From Paraburkholderia sp. HP33-1 (lineage in GTDB: Bacteria > Pseudomonadota > Gammaproteobacteria > Burkholderiales > Burkholderiaceae): a DNA stretch of 64,000 bases. The stretch is taken from assembly GCF_021390595.1 (NCBI RefSeq), contig NZ_JAJEJR010000002.1, forward strand, positions 496,001-560,000, read 5' to 3'. Positions 34,871 to 64,000 of this stretch are shown in pieces (position 1 is the stretch's first letter; each line of letters opens with the position of its first letter). The notes beneath the pieces were generated by a model. The model was not told the origin of the DNA, did no database searches, and was given only the letters and a program-made list of their open reading frames with translations. The position numbers and the translations under genes were made by a program.

Positions 34871-36094
34871 TCAGGCTTCGCCAGGTTCCAGCGGTTGCGC
34901 GGTGGCGAGAGATGGCCGCATCTCTGCGAATTCCGAATCAGCCGTCTGGGCGGTCGTGATGGCCTGGTCGGCGCTGGCGCGTGCTCCGACCGCGCGCATA
35001 TCGGCCAGCTTTTTCGCGAGACCCTTGGCGTAAAGCGCCATTTTTCCCCACCGCGTGGTAGCAATCTGAAAGCTGGTGTTCTGCAGGACATTGCCCCGGC
35101 TCCAGTACGCCTTAAAATCTTCCGTGCCGATGCCGAAGTCGACATCCATACGATTTTCCCATGCCCACTTGATGCAGCGCTCCATCATGATCGAACCGGG
35201 GGCGAACCTGGAAAACTTCGGGTCGAAGCCTGCGATCAGACCGTTCACGCACGTATGCCCCAAGCCTATGAGGCTCGCAGCGACCGGCGTGCCGTCGAGA
35301 GTCATCACGAAAAGTATTCCCATCGGCTGCGTGTGCGTGCCGTCGACGAGATTAATCAGAAAGTCCCGATAATCCTGCGAATAAAGCCAGGCCCCTTGTT
35401 TTTCGACGCGTTCCGCCCATTCGCGTTTGCGCGCGAGCATCCAGTCCACCCATTGGGCGTGCGCGTGCGTATCCTTGGCTTCGAGGGCGCGGATTTCCAG
35501 GGTGCCTTCCTTTTCGAAGCGCCTTTCACGCGCGCCAGGCTTCTTCTTCGACAACGTGCCGAGCGTGCGGCAGTAAGCCGTCCAGTCCGGCTCCTTGCGC
35601 AGTAACGCCATCGCGGAGACATTCTGCGTCGCCGCGACGAGGCCCGCGTGTCGCGATGCGAGATCGTAGAACGGCGCGTTCTTGCCTACGTACGGAACAT
35701 TGAAGATATCGGCGTGGGAGTACCGGGTCGCGGCGCGCCAGGCTGCATCGATCGCCCCACTCGCGTCGGCGGCGGCGAGGATGCTGGTGTATTCAGCGGT
35801 GCCGGGCGTAAGCGGTTCGAGCACGGTCCAGAAGAACTGTCGGCGGCTCACGAGCGGCCAGACGAGCACGAGTTCACCGTTTTCCCGATACACGATGCAG
35901 TGCAGCCGGCGACCGTGCGGCTTCGCCACCTGAGTCCAGCACAGCCAGCAGACGTCGAAAGCCTCGTGATGGCGTCCGTCGGCTTTCGACCAGAGCGTAT
36001 TCCATGCGTCTCGAAGCGCGAGGAAAGCATCGGGGTCAGTAATGATGTCGAGGCCGGATTGCTGGTTGCTCACATTTTCTTCTGATCGCTGCAT
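34871..36094 (-). CDS. FemAB/CelD-like acetyltransferase-fold protein (Acetyltransf_6)
   Basis: 407 residues from ATG at 36094 (MQRSEENVSNQQSG); the longer frame adds unlike sequence. The protein has the double GNAT-like fold of the CelD/BcsL group: ALRDAWNTLWSKADG..HEAFDVCWLCWTQVAKP at the start, LVWPLVSRRQFFWTVLEPL, then the C-terminal half with VDWMLARKREWAERVEK, FVMTLDGTPVAASLIGLG, CVNGLIAGFDPKFSRFAPGSIMMERCIKWAWE and MDVDFGIGTEDFKAYWS. The last two are the family core. Relatives join aminoacyl groups or acylate sugars. Its neighbourhood of amidoligase genes makes an amide-forming role attractive, but this is inference. Confidence 0.8.
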   Translation of the reverse strand: MQRSEENVSNQQSGLDIITDPDAFLALRDAWNTLWSKADGRHHEAFDVCWLCWTQVAKPHGRRLHCIVYRENGELVLVWPLVSRRQFFWTVLEPLTPGTAEYTSILAAADASGAIDAAWRAATRYSHADIFNVPYVGKNAPFYDLASRHAGLVAATQNVSAMALLRKEPDWTAYCRTLGTLSKKKPGARERRFEKEGTLEIRALEAKDTHAHAQWVDWMLARKREWAERVEKQGAWLYSQDYRDFLINLVDGTHTQPMGILFVMTLDGTPVAASLIGLGHTCVNGLIAGFDPKFSRFAPGSIMMERCIKWAWENRMDVDFGIGTEDFKAYWSRGNVLQNTSFQIATTRWGKMALYAKGLAKKLADMRAVGARASADQAITTAQTADSEFAEMRPSLATAQPLEPGEA

Positions 36095-36518
36095 GTCGTA
36101 GCTCAGGCTGGTCTCAAGTGGGTCTTCTCGCCTCTGTCCTGACGGTATCGCTCGGCGCGCTTCGGCGTGCGGGCTACCGGGTGCGAATTCGCGGTTTGCG
36201 AGAATTTGACGCTTGAGACAGGAAGCGTCCGTTCGGTAACCGACACACTTTTCAGTGCAAACGGTTGCCGCCAGGATCAATGCAGTTGCAAGGTCCACGA
36301 AGTGTCGAACCTGACAATTCGTAATCTGGCGAAGGCCGTGCGTCGACGGGCCGTATCGGCATCGCCGCTGCTCGCGTAACCGGCCTTCGTCACGTCGACC
36401 GCGTTCGACTGGGGGCTCCCGTTCTTCTATGGCCGTAACGTGTATGCAGCGATCGAGCAGCAGTCGACGCCGGGTGGGATGGGGCCTTACGTGGCTTACT
36501 GAGGTCGCGTTGTTGTTT
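36095..36518. other. Intergenic region upstream of the acetyltransferase-like gene
   Basis: 424 bases between two minus-strand genes. It should carry the promoter of the gene at 34871-36094. No coding frame with a ribosome site and no strong hairpin was seen. Confidence 0.4.
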
Positions 36519-37589
36519 CTATGCGCGCCTGTCTCCCGCCGCCGCGATCACGCGATGCACGAAGCGCAGCTTCTCGACCACCGGCGCGGCGAGCGTGAAC
36601 GGATAGCCGTCGGGCATGCCGAGACTGCGGTTCAGACTGTTCAGCGCACACGTCAGCGGAAACCAGCGCTTCATCAGATTGCCGAAGCTCGCATCCTCGA
36701 CCGGCGTGCGGTCGGTCAGCGTCGGCTCGCTCGGATCGTCGGGCAGCAGCGCGAGTCCGTACGACGTCGACGTATCGAGCACATCGACGATCAGCAGATA
36801 GTGCGCCCAGGTCTCCGCCCAGTCTTCCCACGGATGCATCGTCGCGTACGCACTGATATACGACGCCTGCCAGTCGGCCGGTGGGCCGTTCCAATAGTAG
36901 GCGTCGAGCGCTTCGCCGTAGTTGGCCTGCTCGTCGCCGAACAGCTGGCGAAACTGGTCGAGCCAGCGCGGCTCGGTTTCGATCAGCTGGCTGAAGAAGT
37001 AGTGGCCCGTCTCGTGGCGGAAGTGGCCGAGCAGCGTGCGGTACGGTTCGCCCATCGCGGTGCGGACTTTCTCGCGATGCGCGTCGTCGGCCTCGGCGAT
37101 GTTCAGCGTGATTAGCCCGTTGTCGTGACCGGTCATCACGCGTTCGCCGTCGCCGCCGTCGGCGAGAAATTCGAAGGCGAGCCCGTGCTCGGGGTCCGCG
37201 TCGCGCGATGGCACGTCGAAGCCAAGCCCCGCCAGCGTGTAGAGCAGACGCCGCTTCGCCACTTCGAGCCGGTACCAGTAGAGCCGGTTTTCCGGTTCGC
37301 TCAGGTTCGGAATCGTGCGGGTCAGCTGGCAGGCGTGGCACAGCGTGTCGGGCGAATCGGCGTGAATCATCCAGTTGCAGACGTTCTCGACCGCGTAGTT
37401 GTGGCATTGACGGAACAGCGCGCCGTTCGCCTGCGGATGCAGGCTGCGCCAGCGGCCGTTGCCGGCGTATTCGAAGGCGCTGATTTCCCGCTGTTCAGGC
37501 AGATAGCCGAGCAGCGACTCGCAGCGCTCGCAGCGGACGTTCTCGTAGAACACGAGTTGCGCGCAGCGATTGCAGTGAAAGGTTTTCAT
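36519..37589 (-). CDS. Zinc-ribbon plus predicted zinc metallopeptidase (COG4307-like)
   Basis: 356 residues from the ATG of MKTFHCNRCAQLVFYENVRC. Cysteines 6, 9, 20 and 23 form a zinc ribbon and a second set (62, 71, 84, 87) follows. Residues 185-200 contain LLGHFRHETGHYFF with the HExxH metallopeptidase motif at 192-196, and later EDWAETWAHYLLI may give the third ligand. There is no signal peptide, so it acts in the cytoplasm. It is divergent from the transglutaminase-amidoligase operon starting at 37872. Such peptidases recur next to ATP-grasp/alpha-E/transglutaminase genes, which suggests it trims or removes what that operon makes. Confidence 0.8.
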   Translation of the reverse strand: MKTFHCNRCAQLVFYENVRCERCESLLGYLPEQREISAFEYAGNGRWRSLHPQANGALFRQCHNYAVENVCNWMIHADSPDTLCHACQLTRTIPNLSEPENRLYWYRLEVAKRRLLYTLAGLGFDVPSRDADPEHGLAFEFLADGGDGERVMTGHDNGLITLNIAEADDAHREKVRTAMGEPYRTLLGHFRHETGHYFFSQLIETEPRWLDQFRQLFGDEQANYGEALDAYYWNGPPADWQASYISAYATMHPWEDWAETWAHYLLIVDVLDTSTSYGLALLPDDPSEPTLTDRTPVEDASFGNLMKRWFPLTCALNSLNRSLGMPDGYPFTLAAPVVEKLRFVHRVIAAAGDRRA

Positions 37590-37871
37590 CGGGCGGGCCT
37601 CGTGAGGAGTGCGATGTCGTCGGCGAAAGCCTGCCGCAATCTTCATGCCGCGATTGCCAGACTTCACCGCTTTAACGCACAGTACGGTCATGATCGTGCA
37701 ACGACGCTGCGCCGCTTTGGTGCACGCTCCGGCGCGGGCCAGCGGCAAGGCAAGCGGTACGCAAAACGCACACGCAGCTCAGGCAACATCAGGCGGTTCA
37801 CGCGAGTTTGTCCAGCAACGGCATAGAGCTTGCTTTTTTAGCAGGCTGCCCTTTTCGTCGAGGAGTCCGGA

Positions 37872-40800
37872 GTGTCCATACGCGTCGCGTTGCATCACGT
37901 TACTCATTACCGTTACGACAGGCTGGTTACGCTTTCGCCTCAGGTTGTGCGGCTACGGCCCGCGCCGCATTGTCGTACGCCCATCCTGTCGTACTCGATG
38001 CGCGTCGAGCCCGCGAAGCACTTTATCAACTGGCAGCAGGACGCGTTCGCCAACTATCAGGCGCGGCTCGTGTTTCCCGAGCAGACGCGCGAGTTCAAGG
38101 TGAGCGTCGATCTGGTCGCCGAAATGGCCGTCTACAACCCGTTCGACTTCTTTCTCGAACCGTCGGCCGAGCAGTTTCCGTTCGAGTACGCGCCGGAGCT
38201 GGCGGCCGAGCTCGCGCCCTACTGCGTGAAGCGGCCGATGACGCCGCGCTTCGCCGGGTTCGTCGCGAGCATCGACCGCACGCCGGCCCGCACCTCGGAC
38301 TTTCTCGTCGCGCTGAACCAGCGGCTGCAACATGAAATCCGCTACCTGATCCGGATGGAGCCGGGCGTGCAGACGCCCGAGGAAACCTTGACCAGCGCAT
38401 CGGGCTCGTGCCGCGATTCGGGCTGGCTGCTGGTCGAGACGCTGCGGCAACTCGGCTTCGCGGCGCGCTTCGTGTCGGGCTATCTGCTGCAGCTCGCGCC
38501 CGACGTCAGATCGATCGATGGCCCGAGCGGCACCGAGGTCGACTTCACCGACCTGCACGCGTGGTGCGAGGTCTATCTGCCCGGCGCGGGCTGGATCGGG
38601 CTCGATCCGACCTCGGGGCTGCTGGCGGGCGAAGGGCATATTCCGGTGGCCTGTACGCCGGAGCCAGGCAGCGCGGCGCCGATCTCGGGCGCGGTCGACG
38701 AATGCGAGGTCGAGTTCGAGCACGAAATGTCGATCAAACGCGTGCTGGAGTCGCCGCGCGTCACGAAGCCGTATAGCGAAGCCGCCTGGGAGGACGTGCT
38801 GAAGATGGGCGCGCGGGTCGACTATGAACTCGCCGACATGGATGTGCGACTGACGATGGGCGGCGAGCCGACCTTCGTGTCGGTGCGCGATCGCGACGAC
38901 GCCGAATGGAACACCGACGCGCTCGGGCCCACCAAGCGCGGCTATGCGGTCGCGCTGATGGACCGGCTGCGCGAACGCTACGGCGCGAACGGCTTCCTGC
39001 ATATCGGGCAGGGCAAGTGGTATCCGGGCGAGCAGTTGCCGCGCTGGGCGATGTCGCTGTACTGGCGCGCCGATGGCGAGCCGTGCTGGCACAACCCGGC
39101 GCTGTTCGCCGACGAACGCGAGCCGGGCCGCTACACGGCCGGCGACGCGCAACGCTTCATCGCGCACCTGGCCGCGAAGCTGTCGCTCGACGCGGACTGC
39201 ATCCAGCCCGGCTACGAAGACACCTGGTACTACCTGTGGCGTGAGCGTCGCCTGCCGGTCAACGTCGATCCGTTCGACGCGCGCCTCGACGACGAACTTG
39301 AACGCGTGCGATTGCGGCGCGTGTTCGACGCGGGGCTCGCGAGTCCGGCCGGCTACGTGCTGCCGATCGGCCGCGAGCGCGCCGCGCCGGGCATCGCGCC
39401 GACGTGGATCACGGGCCGCTGGTTCTTCCGCGACGAACGCATGTATCTGATTCCCGGCGATTCGCCGATGGGCTACCGGCTACCGCTCGATTCGCTGCCG
39501 TGGGTGTCGAAGACCGACTATCCGTATCAGCATGCGCACGATCCGTTCGCGCCGGCCGAGCCGCTGCGCACGGCCGCGCAGTTGCGCGTTCAGTACCAGG
39601 GCGAGCGCGAGGACCGGCAGATCGCCGCTGATGAGACCAGCGCACAGCAGGCGGCCGCGCTGTCGTTGTCGGCAGCCGATCTGCTGAGCGGCATGCCGCA
39701 CGGCGGTGTGCTCGCGTATGCACCGCCGCGCGGCGACGCGTCATTGCCGGGGCGCGGTGAGTCGTCGCCGGAGACGTTGCGCACCGCGGTGTGCGTCGAG
39801 GCGCGCGACCCGAAACGCGCGGCCGGCCCGAAAGCCGAAGCACATTCGTTCGGCAGCGGCCGCACGCTGCTGCACGTGTTCATGCCGCCGCTGACCGATC
39901 TCGACGATTATCTCGACCTGCTCGCCGCGGTCGAAGCGACGGCCGATGAGCTGAAGATGCAGATCGTGCTCGAAGGCTATCCGCCGCCGCGCGACGCGCG
40001 CCTGAAAGTGCTGCAGGTCACGCCCGACCCCGGCGTGATCGAGGTCAACATTCATCCGGCCGCGAACTGGGACGAACTCGTCGATCACACCGAGTACCTG
40101 TATCAGTCGGCGGCGCACAGCTACCTGAGCAGCGAGAAGTTCATGCTCGACGGGCGCCACACCGGCACCGGCGGCGGCAATCACTTCGTGCTCGGCGGCG
40201 CGACACCGGCCGACAGCCCGTTCCTGCGCCGGCCCGATCTGCTCGCGAGCCTGATCGCGTACTGGCACAACCATCCGTCGCTGTCGTATCTGTTCTCGGG
40301 CTTGTTCATCGGGCCGACGAGCCAGGCGCCGCGGGTCGACGAAGCCCGCAACGATCAGCTCTACGAACTTGAAATCGCGCTCGCCGAACTGCAACGGCAG
40401 GTCGATCTGCTCGGCGGCCGCGACAGCGGCAACCTGCCGCCGTGGATGATCGATCGAGCGCTGCGCAACATCCTGATCGACGTGACCGGCAACACGCACC
40501 GCGCCGAGTTCTGCATCGACAAGCTTTATTCGCCCGACGGGCCGACCGGCCGCCTCGGTCTGCTGGAACTGCGCGGCTTCGAGATGCCGCCACACGCGCG
40601 CATGAGTCTGGTGCAGCAACTGCTGCTGCGCGCACTGGTCGCGCGATTCTGGCGCACGCCGTACACGCAGCGCCTCACGCGCTGGGGCACCGAGCTGCAC
40701 GACCGCTTCCTGCTCGGCACCTTCGTGAAAATGGATTTCGACGACGTGCTCGCCGAGCTGCGCGAAGCGGGCTTCGCATTCGACAGCGCGTGGTTCGCGC

Positions 40801-41357
40801 CGCACTTCGAATTCCGCTTTCCGCTCGTCGGCGAGATGTCTTTGAGCGGCATCGATCTGACGATACGCAACGCACTCGAACCGTGGCACGTGATGGGCGA
40901 GGAGGGCGCTAGCGGCGCCACGGTGCGCTATGTCGATTCGTCGGTCGAGCGGCTGGAGGTGCGAGCGCTGGGCTTGAACGGCAATCGTCACGTGCTGAGC
41001 GTCAACAGCGTGCCGGTGCCGTTGCAGCCCACCGGCCGCGTCAGCGAGTACGTGGCCGGCGTGCGTTTTCGTGCGTGGTCGCAGCCGTCGGCGCTGCATC
41101 CGACGATCGGCGTGCATGCGCCGCTCACGTTCGACCTCGTCGACACATGGAGCGGCCGCTCGCTCGGCGGATGCCAGTATCATGTCGCTCATCCGGGCGG
41201 GCGCAACTATCAGACCTTCCCGGTCAACGCCTACGAGGCGGAAAGCCGGCGGCGCGCGCGTTTCTTCGCGTCGGGTCATACGCCGGGGCCGCTCGCCGTG
41301 GGCACGCCGCAGCGCAGCCTCGAGTTTCCGTTCACGCTCGATTTGCGGCACAGTTGA
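37872..41357 (+). CDS. Transglutaminase-like protease fused to DUF2126 putative amidoligase
   Basis: 1161 residues from a GTG at 37872 with GGAG upstream. Residues 1-290 are a bacterial transglutaminase module: a beta domain starting with RVALHHVTHYRYDR, then a papain-like core with Cys180 (GSCRDSGW), His229 (DLHAWCEVY) and Asp245 (GLDPTSG). Residues about 300-1161 are DUF2126, a putative amidoligase with glutamine-synthetase-like fold (LTMGGEPTFVS, WYPGEQLPRWA, ATADELKMQIVLEGYPPP, GTGGGNHFVLGGAT, RAEFCIDKLYSPDGPTGRLGLLELRGFEMPPH). The length is normal for this fusion. It heads a coupled three-gene operon. Substrate unknown; formation and cleavage of peptide or isopeptide bonds is predicted from the families. 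Confidence 0.9.
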   Translation: MSIRVALHHVTHYRYDRLVTLSPQVVRLRPAPHCRTPILSYSMRVEPAKHFINWQQDAFANYQARLVFPEQTREFKVSVDLVAEMAVYNPFDFFLEPSAEQFPFEYAPELAAELAPYCVKRPMTPRFAGFVASIDRTPARTSDFLVALNQRLQHEIRYLIRMEPGVQTPEETLTSASGSCRDSGWLLVETLRQLGFAARFVSGYLLQLAPDVRSIDGPSGTEVDFTDLHAWCEVYLPGAGWIGLDPTSGLLAGEGHIPVACTPEPGSAAPISGAVDECEVEFEHEMSIKRVLESPRVTKPYSEAAWEDVLKMGARVDYELADMDVRLTMGGEPTFVSVRDRDDAEWNTDALGPTKRGYAVALMDRLRERYGANGFLHIGQGKWYPGEQLPRWAMSLYWRADGEPCWHNPALFADEREPGRYTAGDAQRFIAHLAAKLSLDADCIQPGYEDTWYYLWRERRLPVNVDPFDARLDDELERVRLRRVFDAGLASPAGYVLPIGRERAAPGIAPTWITGRWFFRDERMYLIPGDSPMGYRLPLDSLPWVSKTDYPYQHAHDPFAPAEPLRTAAQLRVQYQGEREDRQIAADETSAQQAAALSLSAADLLSGMPHGGVLAYAPPRGDASLPGRGESSPETLRTAVCVEARDPKRAAGPKAEAHSFGSGRTLLHVFMPPLTDLDDYLDLLAAVEATADELKMQIVLEGYPPPRDARLKVLQVTPDPGVIEVNIHPAANWDELVDHTEYLYQSAAHSYLSSEKFMLDGRHTGTGGGNHFVLGGATPADSPFLRRPDLLASLIAYWHNHPSLSYLFSGLFIGPTSQAPRVDEARNDQLYELEIALAELQRQVDLLGGRDSGNLPPWMIDRALRNILIDVTGNTHRAEFCIDKLYSPDGPTGRLGLLELRGFEMPPHARMSLVQQLLLRALVARFWRTPYTQRLTRWGTELHDRFLLGTFVKMDFDDVLAELREAGFAFDSAWFAPHFEFRFPLVGEMSLSGIDLTIRNALEPWHVMGEEGASGATVRYVDSSVERLEVRALGLNGNRHVLSVNSVPVPLQPTGRVSEYVAGVRFRAWSQPSALHPTIGVHAPLTFDLVDTWSGRSLGGCQYHVAHPGGRNYQTFPVNAYEAESRRRARFFASGHTPGPLAVGTPQRSLEFPFTLDLRHS

Positions 41358-41386
41358 ATAACATGCATCACTGACACCACACGACC

Positions 41387-44008
41387 TTGGCCTTTCAATC
41401 GACTTTGCCCTTCGAGGCGTCCGCGCTGCCGGCGGACGCTTCGTCCATGTTGCGGTTGCTGCCGGGTCATGACGGACATTGGGACGAGTTGCGCGACGCG
41501 TCGGGCGCGCTGCGCGAGCCGTGGCGGCAGTTCTTCGCGCAACTCGGCGAAGGCGGCGTCGCGCGGCTCGCGGACCATCACGCGTCGATCGCGCAGCAGA
41601 TCCGCGACAACGACATCAGCTACAACGTCTACGCGGACAACGGCAAGTCGCGGCCATGGGCGCTCGACCTGCTGCCGTTCCTGATCAGCGAGGCCGAGTG
41701 GGCGCAGATCGAGCGCGGCGTCGCGCAGCGCGCGCATCTGCTCAACGCAATCGTCGCCGATATCTACGGACCGCAGACGCTGCTGGAATATGGGCAACTG
41801 CCGCCCGCGCTGGTGTTCGGTCATCCCGGCTATCTGCGTTCGGTGAAGGGCTTTACGCCGCCGGGTGGCCAGTATCTGCAGGTCGTCGCGCTCGATCTCG
41901 CGCGTACGCCGGGCGGCGAGTGGAGCGTGATCGCGCATCGCACCGAGGCGCCGTCCGGCCTCGGCTACGCGCTCGAAAACCGCCTGATCGTATCGACGCT
42001 GCTCGCCGAGCCATTCCGCTCGCTGCACGTGAGCCGGCTCGCGCCGCTCTATTCGCAACTGATCGCGACACACGTGCAGGCCGCGCAGGCGACGATGCGC
42101 GACGGTGAAGGCACCGACGCGTCGCCCCATATCGCGCTGCTCACGCCGGGGCCGTACAGCGAAACCTATTTCGAGCACGTGTTCCTTGCGCGCTATCTCG
42201 GCGTCACGCTGGTCGAAGGCAAGGATCTGACCGTGCGCGGCGACCGGCTCTATCTGAAGACCCTGGCGGGGCTCGAACGCGTGCATGTCGTGCTGCGCCG
42301 TCTCGACGACGCGTTCTGCGACCCAGTCGAACTGCGCGCCGATTCGACGATCGGCGTGCCAGGGCTGTTGCAGGTGATGCGCGCGGGCAATGTGATCGTG
42401 TCGAACGTGCCGGGCTCGGGCTTCGCCGAATCTCCGGCATTGCATGGTTTCATGCCGGGAATCGCAGAAGCCTTGCTCGGCGAGGAACTGCTGCTGCCCG
42501 GCGTGCCGACCTGGTGGTGCGGCGAAGAGGCCGCGCGCGAGCATGCGTTCGCGCATCTCGACGAGGCGTTCATCGTGCCGACCTGGCCGCTCGCCGGACG
42601 CGACGCCCCGCCCGGCATCGAGGGCGGCAGGCAGCCGGTCGCGGCATGGCGCGAGCGCATCGAGGCGGTGCCCGACGCGTTCACGATCCAGCAGGAGCAG
42701 CGCTTTTCCTGCACGCCGCGCTACGAGGAGGGCACGATCGGCGGCCGGGCGTCGGTGTTGCGGGTCTATGCGATTGCCGACGTCAACGGCGGCTGGCACG
42801 TGATGCCGGGCGGCTTCACGCGGATGGCCGCCGAGCGGCAAACCACGGTATCGATGCAGTACGGCGGCAGCAGCGTCGATACATGGGTGCTGTCGAGCCA
42901 GCCGACCTCGACGTTCACGCTGCTGCCTTCGCCGATGCAGCCCGCCGACCTCACGCGCAAGCATCGCACGGTGTCGAGCCGTGCCGCGGAGAACCTGTTC
43001 TGGGCGGGCCGCTACGGCGAGCGCGCGGAAAACAACGTGCGCCTGCTGCGGCTGATTCTCGGCTCGCTCGAAGGCAGCGACGCCGACGCGATGTTCGCGA
43101 CGCTGCTCGAACTCGCGACGTGGTGCGGCCTCGTGCAGGCGGGCGACCTGACGTCGCCGCGCGTGCCGGCGTCGCCGCAGACGTTCGAGCGCGCGCTCGT
43201 CTCGAATCTCGGCGAGAGTGCGGGCAGCGTCAGCATCAGCCAGAACCTGAATTGCCAGGCGCGCGCGAACGGCGAGGTGCGCGGGCGCTTGTCGAATGAT
43301 CATTGGCGCATGATCCTCGCGGCGCGCAACGACTTTGAGGACGCGTTGCAGGTGTTGCTGCCGGCCGTGGGCGCGGGCAATGACAACGCGAATGGCGGTA
43401 GTGCGTTCGATCGTTACGATCGCGTGACGCTCGTGAATGCGCTCGAGCATTTGTCGGTGCAGCTATCGGCAATCAGCGGCGCGCAGGGCGACCGCATGAC
43501 GCGCGATGAAGCGTGGCGGCTGCTGTTCGTCGGGCGTCATATCGAACGCGTCGCGAGCATGGCCGCGTTCATGCGCGTCGTCGCCGCGAACGGCCAGCTC
43601 ACGACGCCGGCCGGCTTCGATCTGCTGCTGCAAATGTTCGACAGCACGCTCACGTACCGAACGCTGTATCCAGGGCGTTTCGAAGTGCCCGCGCTGCTCG
43701 ATCTGCTCGTGATCGAACCGCACAATCCGCGCGGCATTTATGGCGTGTACGAGCGGCTGCGTACAAAGCTCGACGAGATTTCGATTGCGGCGGGCAGCCT
43801 GCGGCATCGGCCGTTTGCGGAGCTGCTGCCGTCCGTCGAGTTGATGCCGTCGCTCGAGTCGCTGTGCGAGGTCGACGAACACGGATCGCATGCCACGCTG
43901 ATCGCGCTGTGCGATCAGATCGGCGGGTTCGCGAACGCGGCCGCGCATGAGATCAGCGCGCGCTATTTCAGTCACGCGACCACGGTCGCCTCGCAGGTGT
44001 GGGCATGA
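41387..44008 (+). CDS. Circularly permuted ATP-grasp fused to alpha-E domain
   Basis: 873 residues. Residues about 30-510 are the circularly permuted ATP-grasp (COG2308 type): NDISYNVYADNGKSRPWALDLLP, AFVFGHPG-like ALVFGHPGYLRSVKG, EAPSGLGYALENRLI, LTPGPYSETYFEHVFLARYLG, LVEGKDLTVRGDRLYLKT. Residues about 527-873 are an alpha-helical alpha-E domain (COG2307/DUF403) from SRAAENLFWAGRYGERAENNVRLLR to SARYFSHATTVASQVWA. In most genomes these are two genes. The frame offers a TTG start at 41387; an alternative ATG is at 41447. It lies 29 bases after the amidoligase gene and overlaps the next by four. Predicted to ligate carboxylates to amines using ATP. Confidence 0.9.
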   Translation: MAFQSTLPFEASALPADASSMLRLLPGHDGHWDELRDASGALREPWRQFFAQLGEGGVARLADHHASIAQQIRDNDISYNVYADNGKSRPWALDLLPFLISEAEWAQIERGVAQRAHLLNAIVADIYGPQTLLEYGQLPPALVFGHPGYLRSVKGFTPPGGQYLQVVALDLARTPGGEWSVIAHRTEAPSGLGYALENRLIVSTLLAEPFRSLHVSRLAPLYSQLIATHVQAAQATMRDGEGTDASPHIALLTPGPYSETYFEHVFLARYLGVTLVEGKDLTVRGDRLYLKTLAGLERVHVVLRRLDDAFCDPVELRADSTIGVPGLLQVMRAGNVIVSNVPGSGFAESPALHGFMPGIAEALLGEELLLPGVPTWWCGEEAAREHAFAHLDEAFIVPTWPLAGRDAPPGIEGGRQPVAAWRERIEAVPDAFTIQQEQRFSCTPRYEEGTIGGRASVLRVYAIADVNGGWHVMPGGFTRMAAERQTTVSMQYGGSSVDTWVLSSQPTSTFTLLPSPMQPADLTRKHRTVSSRAAENLFWAGRYGERAENNVRLLRLILGSLEGSDADAMFATLLELATWCGLVQAGDLTSPRVPASPQTFERALVSNLGESAGSVSISQNLNCQARANGEVRGRLSNDHWRMILAARNDFEDALQVLLPAVGAGNDNANGGSAFDRYDRVTLVNALEHLSVQLSAISGAQGDRMTRDEAWRLLFVGRHIERVASMAAFMRVVAANGQLTTPAGFDLLLQMFDSTLTYRTLYPGRFEVPALLDLLVIEPHNPRGIYGVYERLRTKLDEISIAAGSLRHRPFAELLPSVELMPSLESLCEVDEHGSHATLIALCDQIGGFANAAAHEISARYFSHATTVASQVWA

Positions 44009-44895
44009 AGAAGGCGTCGACGGTGCTGTCGGTCTCGCATCGCACTACTTACCATTACTCGACGTATGTCGAAACCGCGCAGCATCTGGCGACGATCCGG
44101 CCGCTTGCGTGTCCGTGGCAACGTGTGATCTCGCGCAGCGAGCGGATCGAGCCGCAGCCGTCGTATCAGCATAGCCGTATCGACGCGTTCGGCAACGACG
44201 TGCTGTACTTCGCGCTCGATACACCGCACGAGCGCCTGCAGCTCGTCAGCGAAACCACGGTCGCGCTGACGCCGCGCTGGACCGACCTCGATGCCGAGGC
44301 CACCCCCCAGTGGGAAACCGTGGCCGAGGCGCTGCGGTTTCGCGTGGGCGGCGCGTTCCGTGCGGAGGCGGAGTATTGCTTCGCGTCGCCGAATATCACG
44401 CTGCGGCCGGCGCTGCGCGCCTATGCGTTGCCGAGCTTCACGCCCGGCCGGCCGCTCGTCGCGGGCGCGATCGATCTGATGCGTCGGATTCACGAGGACT
44501 TCGCGTACAAGCCGTCGGCAACGCTGTTCGATACGCCGGCCGAACGCGCGTTCGAACTGAAGAGCGGCGTGTGTCAGGATTTCGCGCAGGTGATGATCGG
44601 CTGTTTGCGTTCGCTCGGTTTGCCCGCGCGCTACGTCAGCGGCTATCTGCGCAACGATCCGCCGCCGGGCCACCCACGGCTGATTGGCGCGGATGCTTCG
44701 CATGCGTGGGTGTCGGTGCATTGTCCGGCCAGCGGCTGGATCGATCTCGATCCGACCAACGACGTGCTCGCCGATGTCGATCATGTGACGCTTGCGATCG
44801 GGCGCGATTACAGCGATGTGTCGTTGCTGCGCGGGACGATTCTTGGCGGCGGCGCGCATCGCATGGAAGTGGGAGTCACGGTACTGGAGTTGTGA
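44005..44895 (+). CDS. Transglutaminase-like cysteine protease
   Basis: 296 residues from ATG at 44005, which overlaps the stop of the ATP-grasp gene (ATGA). A beta-rich N-terminal domain (SVSHRTTYHYSTYVETAQHLATIRP) precedes a papain-like core with Cys190 in SGVCQDFAQ, His233 in ASHAWVSV and Asp249 in IDLDPTND, a complete triad. It is a COG1305 protein of the kind that always travels with permuted ATP-grasp and alpha-E proteins. It is cytoplasmic, with no signal peptide. It may hydrolyse or transfer the product of the amidoligases. Confidence 0.9.
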   Translation: MKKASTVLSVSHRTTYHYSTYVETAQHLATIRPLACPWQRVISRSERIEPQPSYQHSRIDAFGNDVLYFALDTPHERLQLVSETTVALTPRWTDLDAEATPQWETVAEALRFRVGGAFRAEAEYCFASPNITLRPALRAYALPSFTPGRPLVAGAIDLMRRIHEDFAYKPSATLFDTPAERAFELKSGVCQDFAQVMIGCLRSLGLPARYVSGYLRNDPPPGHPRLIGADASHAWVSVHCPASGWIDLDPTNDVLADVDHVTLAIGRDYSDVSLLRGTILGGGAHRMEVGVTVLEL

Positions 44896-63023: not shown

Positions 63024-63300
63024 ATGCGCACGCTTCGTAGTACCCGTCGAATCCATTGGCGAAACAGCCATCGCGCGTCTGATAGTGCGCTCCCTGATGG
63101 CGCGTGCGCACCTGACTGGCGCATCATGATCCACGGCAGTACGATCAAGGCATTGCGCTGCCCTGCGGATGCGCCGTTAGCGTGCACGTCAACACGCTCT
63201 ATCACGACAAATTCAATGGCATAGCGCTTGCTAGATTGAAGGTCGAGTACCGAATGCGCAGCGCATTCGCCTTCTATTTGACAACAAGACAGGGGCTGAC

Positions 63301-64000
63301 ATGCGATGCTATGACGAGATGCGTCATCACGACGATGGCGTACGGCCGCATTACGCGCGCTTTGAGCGATGGCTGGACAGTCAGGGCAATGAAGCGATCG
63401 CACGCAAGCGTGCGGAAGCGGACCTGCTGTTCCGGCGCGTCGGCATCACCTTCGCGGTGAACGGCGACCTGTCAGGCACCGAACGGCTGATTCCATTCGA
63501 TCTGATTCCGCGCATCATTCCGCGCGGCGAATGGCAGACGCTCGAAGCGGGTTTGCGGCAGCGCGTGCAGGCGCTCAATCTGTTTATCCACGACGTCTAT
63601 CACGATCGCAACATCGTGCGTGCGGGCATCGTGCCGGCCGAGCAGGTCTATACCAATGCGCAGTATCGCCCCGAGATGCAGGGCGTCGACGTGCCGCTCG
63701 GTGTTTACGCGCACATCGCGGGCGTCGACGTGGTGCGCGCCGGCGACGAGGGCGAGTTCTATGTGCTCGAAGACAACCTGCGTGTGCCGTCGGGCGTGTC
63801 GTACATGCTCGAAAACCGCAAGATGATGATGCGGCTCTTCCCCGAGCTGTTCGTGCAGAACCGCATCGCGCCGGTCGCGCACTATCCCGATCTGCTGCTC
63901 GATACGCTGCGCTCGGTCGCACCCGAAGGCGTCGACGATCCGATCGTCGTCGTGCTGACGCCGGGCATGTACAACTCCGCCTATTTCGAGCATACGTTCC
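63301..64000 (+). CDS. Circularly permuted ATP-grasp protein (partial, runs off window)
   Basis: At least 233 residues from ATG at 63301 (MRCYDEMRHHDDGVRPHYAR), with AGGGG six bases upstream. The sequence has the COG2308 N-terminal pattern: GITFAVNGDLSGTERLIPFDLIPRIIPRGEWQTLEAGLRQRVQALNLFIHDVYHDRNI, AEQVYTNAQYRPEMQGVDVPLGVYAHIAGVDVVR, FYVLEDNLRVPSGVSYMLENRKMMMRLFPELF, VVLTPGMYNSAYFEHTF. It is a second, unfused ATP-grasp of the same class as residues 30-510 of the 41387-44008 protein. In many genomes the next genes are an alpha-E protein, a transglutaminase and the proteasome-like peptidase Anbu, so these may lie past base 64000. Confidence 0.9.
   Translation, partial: MRCYDEMRHHDDGVRPHYARFERWLDSQGNEAIARKRAEADLLFRRVGITFAVNGDLSGTERLIPFDLIPRIIPRGEWQTLEAGLRQRVQALNLFIHDVYHDRNIVRAGIVPAEQVYTNAQYRPEMQGVDVPLGVYAHIAGVDVVRAGDEGEFYVLEDNLRVPSGVSYMLENRKMMMRLFPELFVQNRIAPVAHYPDLLLDTLRSVAPEGVDDPIVVVLTPGMYNSAYFEHTF

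Follow-up and report, generated by a model that had tools for sequence, protein, structure and literature searches.

A predicted DUF2126/ATP-grasp/Alpha-E amidoligase locus in Paraburkholderia sp. HP33-1, with a probably inactive fused ATP-grasp and sigma-54/NtrC-like sites

Gene content of the locus

The stretch of DNA analysed here (the window) is 64,000 nt of contig NZ_JAJEJR010000002.1, bases 496001-560000, from the 7.35 Mb genome of Paraburkholderia sp. HP33-1. Four genes lie at 36519..44895, and all of the domains that a sequence-only reading had named in them were assigned by Pfam, including DUF2126, ATP-grasp and Alpha-E, on whose recognition by HMM that reading had made its proposal depend. 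DUF2126, a permuted ATP-grasp, Alpha-E and transglutaminase are encoded together, and the locus is a Burkholderiaceae member of a widespread, predicted DUF2126/ATP-grasp/Alpha-E amidoligase system.

The largest gene (37872..41357, + strand) encodes a transglutaminase-like domain (Bact_transglu_N 4.6e-25, Transglut_core 9.8e-16) fused to DUF2126 (E=0, 1318 bits), a GS-fold amidoligase candidate, and its nearest database relatives are from Paraburkholderia, at 92% identity. The transglutaminase triad C180/H229/D245 stands at the positions where it had been read from the sequence and is invariant in 46/46 aligned proteins, as are E332, E387, E724, N726, H771, R821, E824, R826, R877, E879, E899 and R901 of DUF2126, candidates for an acidic/His/Arg catalytic set. 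A structure model of DUF2126 has a GS-like fold according to Foldseek, with weak E-values (best 0.1); Dop (5lrt, E 0.71) is among the weak matches, and YbdK and GmaS are among the fold matches. HHalign comparison with GS profiles gave no significant similarity (probability about 0.3% or less), from a low-diversity alignment (Neff 2.1-2.3). In one of the other loci (L121:6964-11457, + strand) the DUF2126 frame runs to 1498 aa, against the usual 1090-1200, which may reflect an additional domain or a false start upstream.

The next gene (41387..44008, + strand), which starts at TTG 41387 or ATG 41447, fuses a circularly permuted ATP-grasp (CP_ATPgrasp_2, PF14403, 6.7e-134) to Alpha-E (1.2e-50). 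The ATP-grasp part belongs to the CP_ATPgrasp family and matches PDB 3n6x (4.2e-69), the sole solved relative found for it, which is annotated as a putative glutathionylspermidine synthase; the Alpha-E part was modelled with a pLDDT of 88.6. It is followed by a second transglutaminase-like gene (43999..44895, + strand; Bact_transglu_N 2.6e-20, Transglut_core 1.4e-19), whose start is most likely ATG 44005, so that it overlaps the stop codon of the fusion gene by 4 nt (ATGA). This protein carries a C/H/D triad of its own, and each of the three residues is kept in 92/94 relatives that follow a fused ATP-grasp-Alpha-E gene, the others being mostly gaps.

Divergent from this core is a gene for a zinc metallopeptidase with a zinc ribbon and an HETGH motif (36519..37592, - strand). 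Its open reading frame extends to 37748 and matches Zn_ribbon_DZR_6 (2e-30) and Peptidase_Mx (3.7e-106), but judged from the translation a start at ATG near 37592 is likelier than TTG 37748. In the numbering of the 409-aa frame, C115, C124, C137 and C140, together with H245, E246, H249, E308, D309 and E312, are identical in 38/38 sequences; the HExxH motif is thus accompanied by conserved downstream acids, E308, D309 and E312, one of which may bind zinc. The nearest database relatives of the peptidase are again from Paraburkholderia, at 92% identity. A GNAT (Acetyltransf_6) gene lies downstream of it on the same strand (34871-36298), and no relative of that gene was found beside the system in the other fetched loci.

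Residue losses in the fused ATP-grasp

The fetched loci yielded 178 distinct ATP-grasp sequences, 105 of them fused to Alpha-E and 73 unfused, and a comparison separated the two groups at several positions. The E and N of a V-L-E-D-N motif are present in 73/73 unfused sequences. Among the 105 fused ones the E position is occupied by A (44), S (35), G (19), N (3) and by D, M, R and E (one each), so that E is lost in 104/105, and the N position is occupied by R (102) or H (3), with N kept in none. A GGYG loop is found in 72/73 unfused and 0/105 fused sequences, and a lysine adjacent to the loop in 73/73 and 61/105 respectively. The copy in the window has A-H-R in place of E-D-N, no GGYG loop and V in place of the lysine. 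D, R and DP residues elsewhere are conserved in both groups, and the fold is therefore probably kept. The lost E and N we take to be the counterparts of the magnesium ligands of E. coli glutathionylspermidine synthetase, an enzyme outside this alignment. Judged from these residues, the fused ATP-grasp is probably a dead enzyme; the likeliest role for the fusion would then be that of a scaffold or pseudo-ligase. In the literature searched, no paper on inactive or degenerate ATP-grasp proteins was found.

These losses divide an earlier claim. The sequence-only reading had counted two ligases in the operon and would have given way had both lost their ATP-binding residues: DUF2126, in which no such loss was seen, stands as a candidate, but the fused ATP-grasp, which has lost residues that its unfused paralogues keep, is doubtful.

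Distribution and gene neighbourhoods

Among 299 sampled genomes of the phylum, 84 matched DUF2126, 46 Peptidase_Mx and 156 Alpha-E. Alpha-E occurred in 84/84 DUF2126-positive as against 72/215 DUF2126-negative genomes, two or more copies being present in 76/84 of the former and 11/72 of the latter that have it, and it was also found in 45/46 Peptidase_Mx genomes (the exception being G086). Gene neighbourhoods of DUF2126 were examined in two sets, related loci within which are not independent: 40 loci from 40 of the 84 genomes and the best 80 of at least 593 named loci, one of which (L218) has an incomplete DUF2126 frame. In these two sets respectively the stretch around DUF2126 held the ATP-grasp-Alpha-E fusion in 37/40 and 69/80, several of the 11 named loci without it ending at a contig edge; unfused ATP-grasp and unfused Alpha-E in 14/40 and 38/80; Peptidase_Mx in 8/40 and 10/80; and Anbu in 5/40 and 1/80. 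In two Achromobacter loci (L202, L207) there is an overlap between the genes of the peptidase and the second transglutaminase, and in two from Marinobacter (L240, L251) the peptidase gene comes first in a joint row of genes. In loci without DUF2126 (L136, L144, L145, L146) it adjoins unfused ATP-grasp/Alpha-E genes, with or without Anbu, but in most of the remaining Peptidase_Mx stretches it stands alone. The peptidase is therefore a genuine partner, but one that is optional and in many cases unlinked. The domains, loci and alignments bear out the earlier description of one co-inherited set, made up of a candidate GS-fold ligase, a zinc peptidase and two cysteine enzymes of transglutaminase/protease-like type.

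Some further neighbours and arrangements were seen. A gene that by eye resembles RidA/YjgF (L211:17130-17588 and relatives) occurs in 17/119 DUF2126 loci, and a ComEC-like membrane protein, also recognised by eye (L195:8045-9904 and relatives), in 24/119, its gene in Comamonadaceae lying between ATP-grasp/Alpha-E and DUF2126 genes that point away from each other. In a published expression table an entry 'endoribonuclease putative', PP2689, is listed after PP2685-2687 (PMC3325844). Locus L109 (G267:C1:3604000-3623999) has the transglutaminase and a divergent DUF2126 as separate, overlapping genes and no ATP-grasp-Alpha-E fusion in the stretch; the Peptidase_Mx gene of that genome lies elsewhere, with unfused Alpha-E and ATP-grasp (L145).

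A sister Anbu operon and sigma-54/NtrC-like sites

The operon described above contains no Anbu gene, but a sister operon, which begins 18.4 kb downstream at 63301 and runs off the window (locus L092), does. Its first gene (63301-64710, + strand, within the window to 64000) encodes an unfused ATP-grasp with intact motifs, followed outside the window by Alpha-E (64870-65820) and transglutaminase (65833-66633) genes, all three being assigned by Pfam, and by Anbu (66735-67607). The Pfam Proteasome match of the last is weak, and its identity comes from PDB entries 5nyw, 5nyj, 5nyf and 5lox (E 2.3e-79 to 1.7e-69), the designed Anbu 5loy also being matched (4.7e-93). The gene order is that of the published Anbu operon (PMC6376114, PMC5666114). 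Only the first 700 bases of this operon had been available to the sequence-only reading.

Both operons are preceded by promoter-like elements, of which the earlier reading had made no mention and which were found here. Upstream of the DUF2126 operon there is an NtrC-like inverted repeat, TGCGCCGCTTTGGTGCA (37708..37724, + strand), with 1 mismatch to TGCAC-N7-GTGCA, and a sigma-54 -24/-12 promoter-like site, CGGCATAGAGCTTGCT (37819..37834, + strand), with 2 mismatches to TGGCAC-N5-TTGCW, the pattern in which GG and GC had to be kept. The sister operon is preceded by the repeat TGCGCCGTTAGCGTGCA (63170..63186, + strand; 1 mismatch) and the -24/-12 site TGGCATAGCGCTTGCT (63217..63232, + strand; 1 mismatch). 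The two -24/-12 sites lie just upstream of the two operons; over the window as a whole, sites of this kind are no more frequent than expected by chance. When five Paraburkholderia upstream regions are aligned, the repeat and the -24/-12 site before the DUF2126 operon are among the best-kept islands. The sigma-54 activator-interacting domain has two matches in the genome, on two contigs (G000:C1:408860-408994 and G000:C2:1070547-1070678).

Sites were then counted in the fetched loci within 250 bases upstream (60 inside) of genes that lead operons according to a simple gene model; DUF2126 loci led by some other gene do not enter the count of 76 DUF2126 leads. With at most 2 mismatches they precede 42/76 DUF2126 leads and 21/43 unfused ATP-grasp leads, as against 44/949 other leads (one-sided Fisher 7e-30 and 2e-15 respectively, uncorrected for relatedness); with at most 1 mismatch the figures are 20/76, 11/43 and 5/949. 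When the spacer was set to 3, 4, 6 or 7 at most 6/76 DUF2126 and 3/43 unfused ATP-grasp leads had a site. The hits with the unaltered spacer comprise 26 and 21 distinct 16-mers respectively. The site is missing in 34/76 DUF2126 leads overall, being present in 10/12 from the window's own GTDB class, 31/50 from named loci and 1/14 from other classes; for unfused ATP-grasp leads the corresponding figures are 6/16, 10/16 and 5/11. Named genera with sites include Paraburkholderia, Variovorax, Polaromonas, Limnohabitans, Rhodoferax, Zoogloea and Pseudomonas.

Published nitrogen-response data

Several published studies bear on the regulation of such operons. In Burkholderia cenocepacia H111 the genes I35_5080-83 are listed among the targets that NtrC and sigma-54 share; their expression fell in an ntrC mutant (fold changes of -8.2, -9.4, -9.4 and -6.0), and they are called DUF404/407, DUF403, transglutaminase-like and 'large protein containing transglutaminase-like domain' (PMC5491218). 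The last, I35_5083, is probably the DUF2126 protein, to judge from its name, which a DUF2126 hit (P0107) also bears, and from how the genes are ordered in a Burkholderia locus (L184). In Pseudomonas putida nitrogen limitation raised PP_2686-2688 by 11- to 15-fold in the wild type; in a relA/spoT mutant the rise was 17- to 37-fold, and in one lacking rpoN it was 14- to 20-fold. For PP_2685 (Anbu) the figures in the three strains were 1.12-, 4.81- and 1.45-fold. The operon is nevertheless placed under NtrB/NtrC by the authors, and the urea transport genes urtABCD were likewise induced in the rpoN mutant (PMC7801951). Strict sigma-54 dependence is therefore not fitted by the P. putida data. A second study of P. 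putida recorded PP2685-2687 as 6.6- to 11.1-fold up in one comparison (PMC3325844), and expression of the Anbu operon is described elsewhere as unchanged under various conditions with the exception of nitrogen limitation (PMC5666114). Urea transport genes share the nitrogen response with these operons (PMC5491218, PMC7801951), and a correlation in marine metagenomes ties the domains to urea metabolism (PMC3597751). From the P. putida and B. cenocepacia data it follows that nitrogen control of the Anbu operon was already known and that one probable DUF2126 gene had already been tabulated.

Comparison with known systems

Iyer et al. 2009 reportedly predicted these families as a peptide-tagging/modification amidoligase system, and the earlier description of the locus as a new system is accordingly too strong; the predicted system reportedly shares with the locus a neighbourhood in which peptidases accompany DUF2126, permuted ATP-grasp, Alpha-E and transglutaminase. 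That work is cited for the prediction in PMC6376114, PMC5666114 and PMC3597751. The closest comparison is with the Anbu operon (ATP-grasp, Alpha-E, transglutaminase and Anbu; P. putida PP_2685-2688 and Yersinia bercovieri), which has paralogous ATP-grasp, Alpha-E and transglutaminase and shares sigma-54/NtrC-type sites with the operon in the window. The latter differs in that it adds DUF2126, in that its ATP-grasp is fused to Alpha-E and degenerate, and in that a zinc peptidase is adjacent where the Anbu operon has Anbu. The Pup-proteasome system (PafA/Dop), which has a role in nitrogen stress, also employs a GS-fold ligase, and a proteasome relative is present in the sister operon, but here there are in addition transglutaminase-like enzymes and Alpha-E, and no match to Pup (PF05639) was found in the HP33-1 genome. 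In glutathionylspermidine synthetase/amidase a single protein holds both a cysteine amidase and an amide ligase, and the transglutaminase-DUF2126 protein resembles it in this pairing, except that the ligase there is an ATP-grasp and the candidate ligase here has a predicted GS fold. Finally, the rlo operon of Pseudomonas aeruginosa also combines an ATP-grasp, a transglutaminase-type domain and a peptidase, but, as described, its peptidase is aspartic, its transglutaminase domain is inactive and membrane-bound, and neither DUF2126 nor Alpha-E is present (PMC12239564). The literature search found no paper naming a substrate of the Anbu/DUF2126 amidoligase families. As far as these searches tell, and with Iyer et al. 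2009 set aside, two findings appear to be new: that a sigma-54-type signal is widespread upstream of DUF2126 operons, and that the fused ATP-grasp is degenerate.

Proposed mechanism and alternatives

Around an anatomy, a co-occurrence, a loss of residues, a GS-like fold of the model and a set of promoter-like sites that were all obtained by calculation, the following scheme may be drawn. Shortage of nitrogen would lead NtrC and sigma-54 to switch on both the DUF2126 operon and the Anbu operon 18 kb away, should the sites function as they appear to. DUF2126 would be the working ligase of the operon in the window, activating a carboxylate with ATP and then joining it to an amine, and the live ATP-grasp would be the unfused paralogue in the Anbu operon. 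Amide bonds would be cut or transferred by the zinc peptidase and the pair of transglutaminase-like cysteine enzymes, to which the sister operon adds Anbu, in a make-and-break cycle that would resemble that of the bifunctional glutathionylspermidine synthetase/amidase. The purpose we infer is the recycling of nitrogen through tagged peptides or proteins, and the bonds, the substrate, the product and the direction are likewise proposals. The whole reading, a make-and-break amide system induced by nitrogen starvation, with DUF2126 as ligase, the fusion as scaffold and hydrolase or transferase roles for the cysteine and zinc enzymes, is put forward tentatively, as somewhat short of probable.

An important consideration is whether proteins are involved at all, for the product might be a free metabolite of the gamma-glutamyl or polyamine-amide type, made and hydrolysed to store nitrogen or to serve as an osmolyte, in which case proteins would not be tagged. 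The annotation of 3n6x as a putative glutathionylspermidine synthase, the presence of YbdK and GmaS among the fold matches of DUF2126 and the nitrogen response held in common with urea transport genes are all consistent with such a pathway, but a proteasome relative (Anbu) and a zinc peptidase (Mx) suit peptides or proteins better, and no metabolite pathway tied to the core was recognised by eye in the 15 largest recurrent neighbour clusters, so that we regard it as unlikely, though a serious competitor. It has less in its favour that the system should be mainly degradative, the transglutaminase-like enzymes, Mx and Anbu scavenging nitrogen from peptides and the ligases merely recharging or regulating. 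Enzymes of hydrolase type do outnumber intact ligases in the operon, and the response to nitrogen limitation would fit, but the high conservation of DUF2126, with its acidic and basic residues intact, makes it probable that an ATP-spending step is retained; moreover, in vitro no peptidase activity was seen for the Anbu of Y. bercovieri, while the ATP-grasp of that species released phosphate from ATP (PMC6376114). We consider this reading quite improbable. At the other extreme lies a proteobacterial counterpart of pupylation, in which NtrC/sigma-54 induction on nitrogen starvation would let DUF2126 and the live ATP-grasp mark proteins with a tag other than Pup under the guidance of the dead ATP-grasp-Alpha-E pseudo-ligase, and the transglutaminase-like enzymes, zinc peptidase and Anbu would remove the tags or degrade the marked proteins for nitrogen to be recycled; a scheme as complete as this is at present a long shot.

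Two further alternatives concern parts of the proposal. The fused ATP-grasp could be alive by way of different metal- or nucleotide-binding residues, which would make two ligases after all, and it is true that the replacement is itself conserved (Arg in 102/105) and that both groups retain D, R, DP and further residues around it. The joint loss of E, N and GGYG (104/105, 105/105 and 105/105), as against their retention in 73, 73 and 72 of 73 unfused sequences, and the additional lack in the window's copy of the lysine that 61/105 keep, make a live enzyme doubtful. As to the promoter-like sites, they might not be functional sigma-54 promoters, the nitrogen response passing through another sigma factor, and the induction of PP_2686-2688 that persists in the P. 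putida rpoN mutant (PMC7801951) points this way. The enrichment over control genes is specific to the spacing, however, the footprint is conserved and sigma-54 dependence is stated for the B. cenocepacia cluster (PMC5491218); we consider this alternative quite improbable.

Significance

The DUF2126/Anbu amidoligase families are common, DUF2126 being found in 84/299 and Alpha-E in 156/299 sampled genomes. The promoter evidence widens the link with nitrogen, published for individual species, to many genera and points to nitrogen starvation as the condition to examine, and the residue evidence suggests, at the level of sequence, that DUF2126 and the unfused ATP-grasp likely carry the ligase chemistry and that the fusion likely does not. 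Taken together, the two lines of evidence make a long-standing question directly testable, the useful advances being a likely dead partner enzyme and a growth condition that can be tested.
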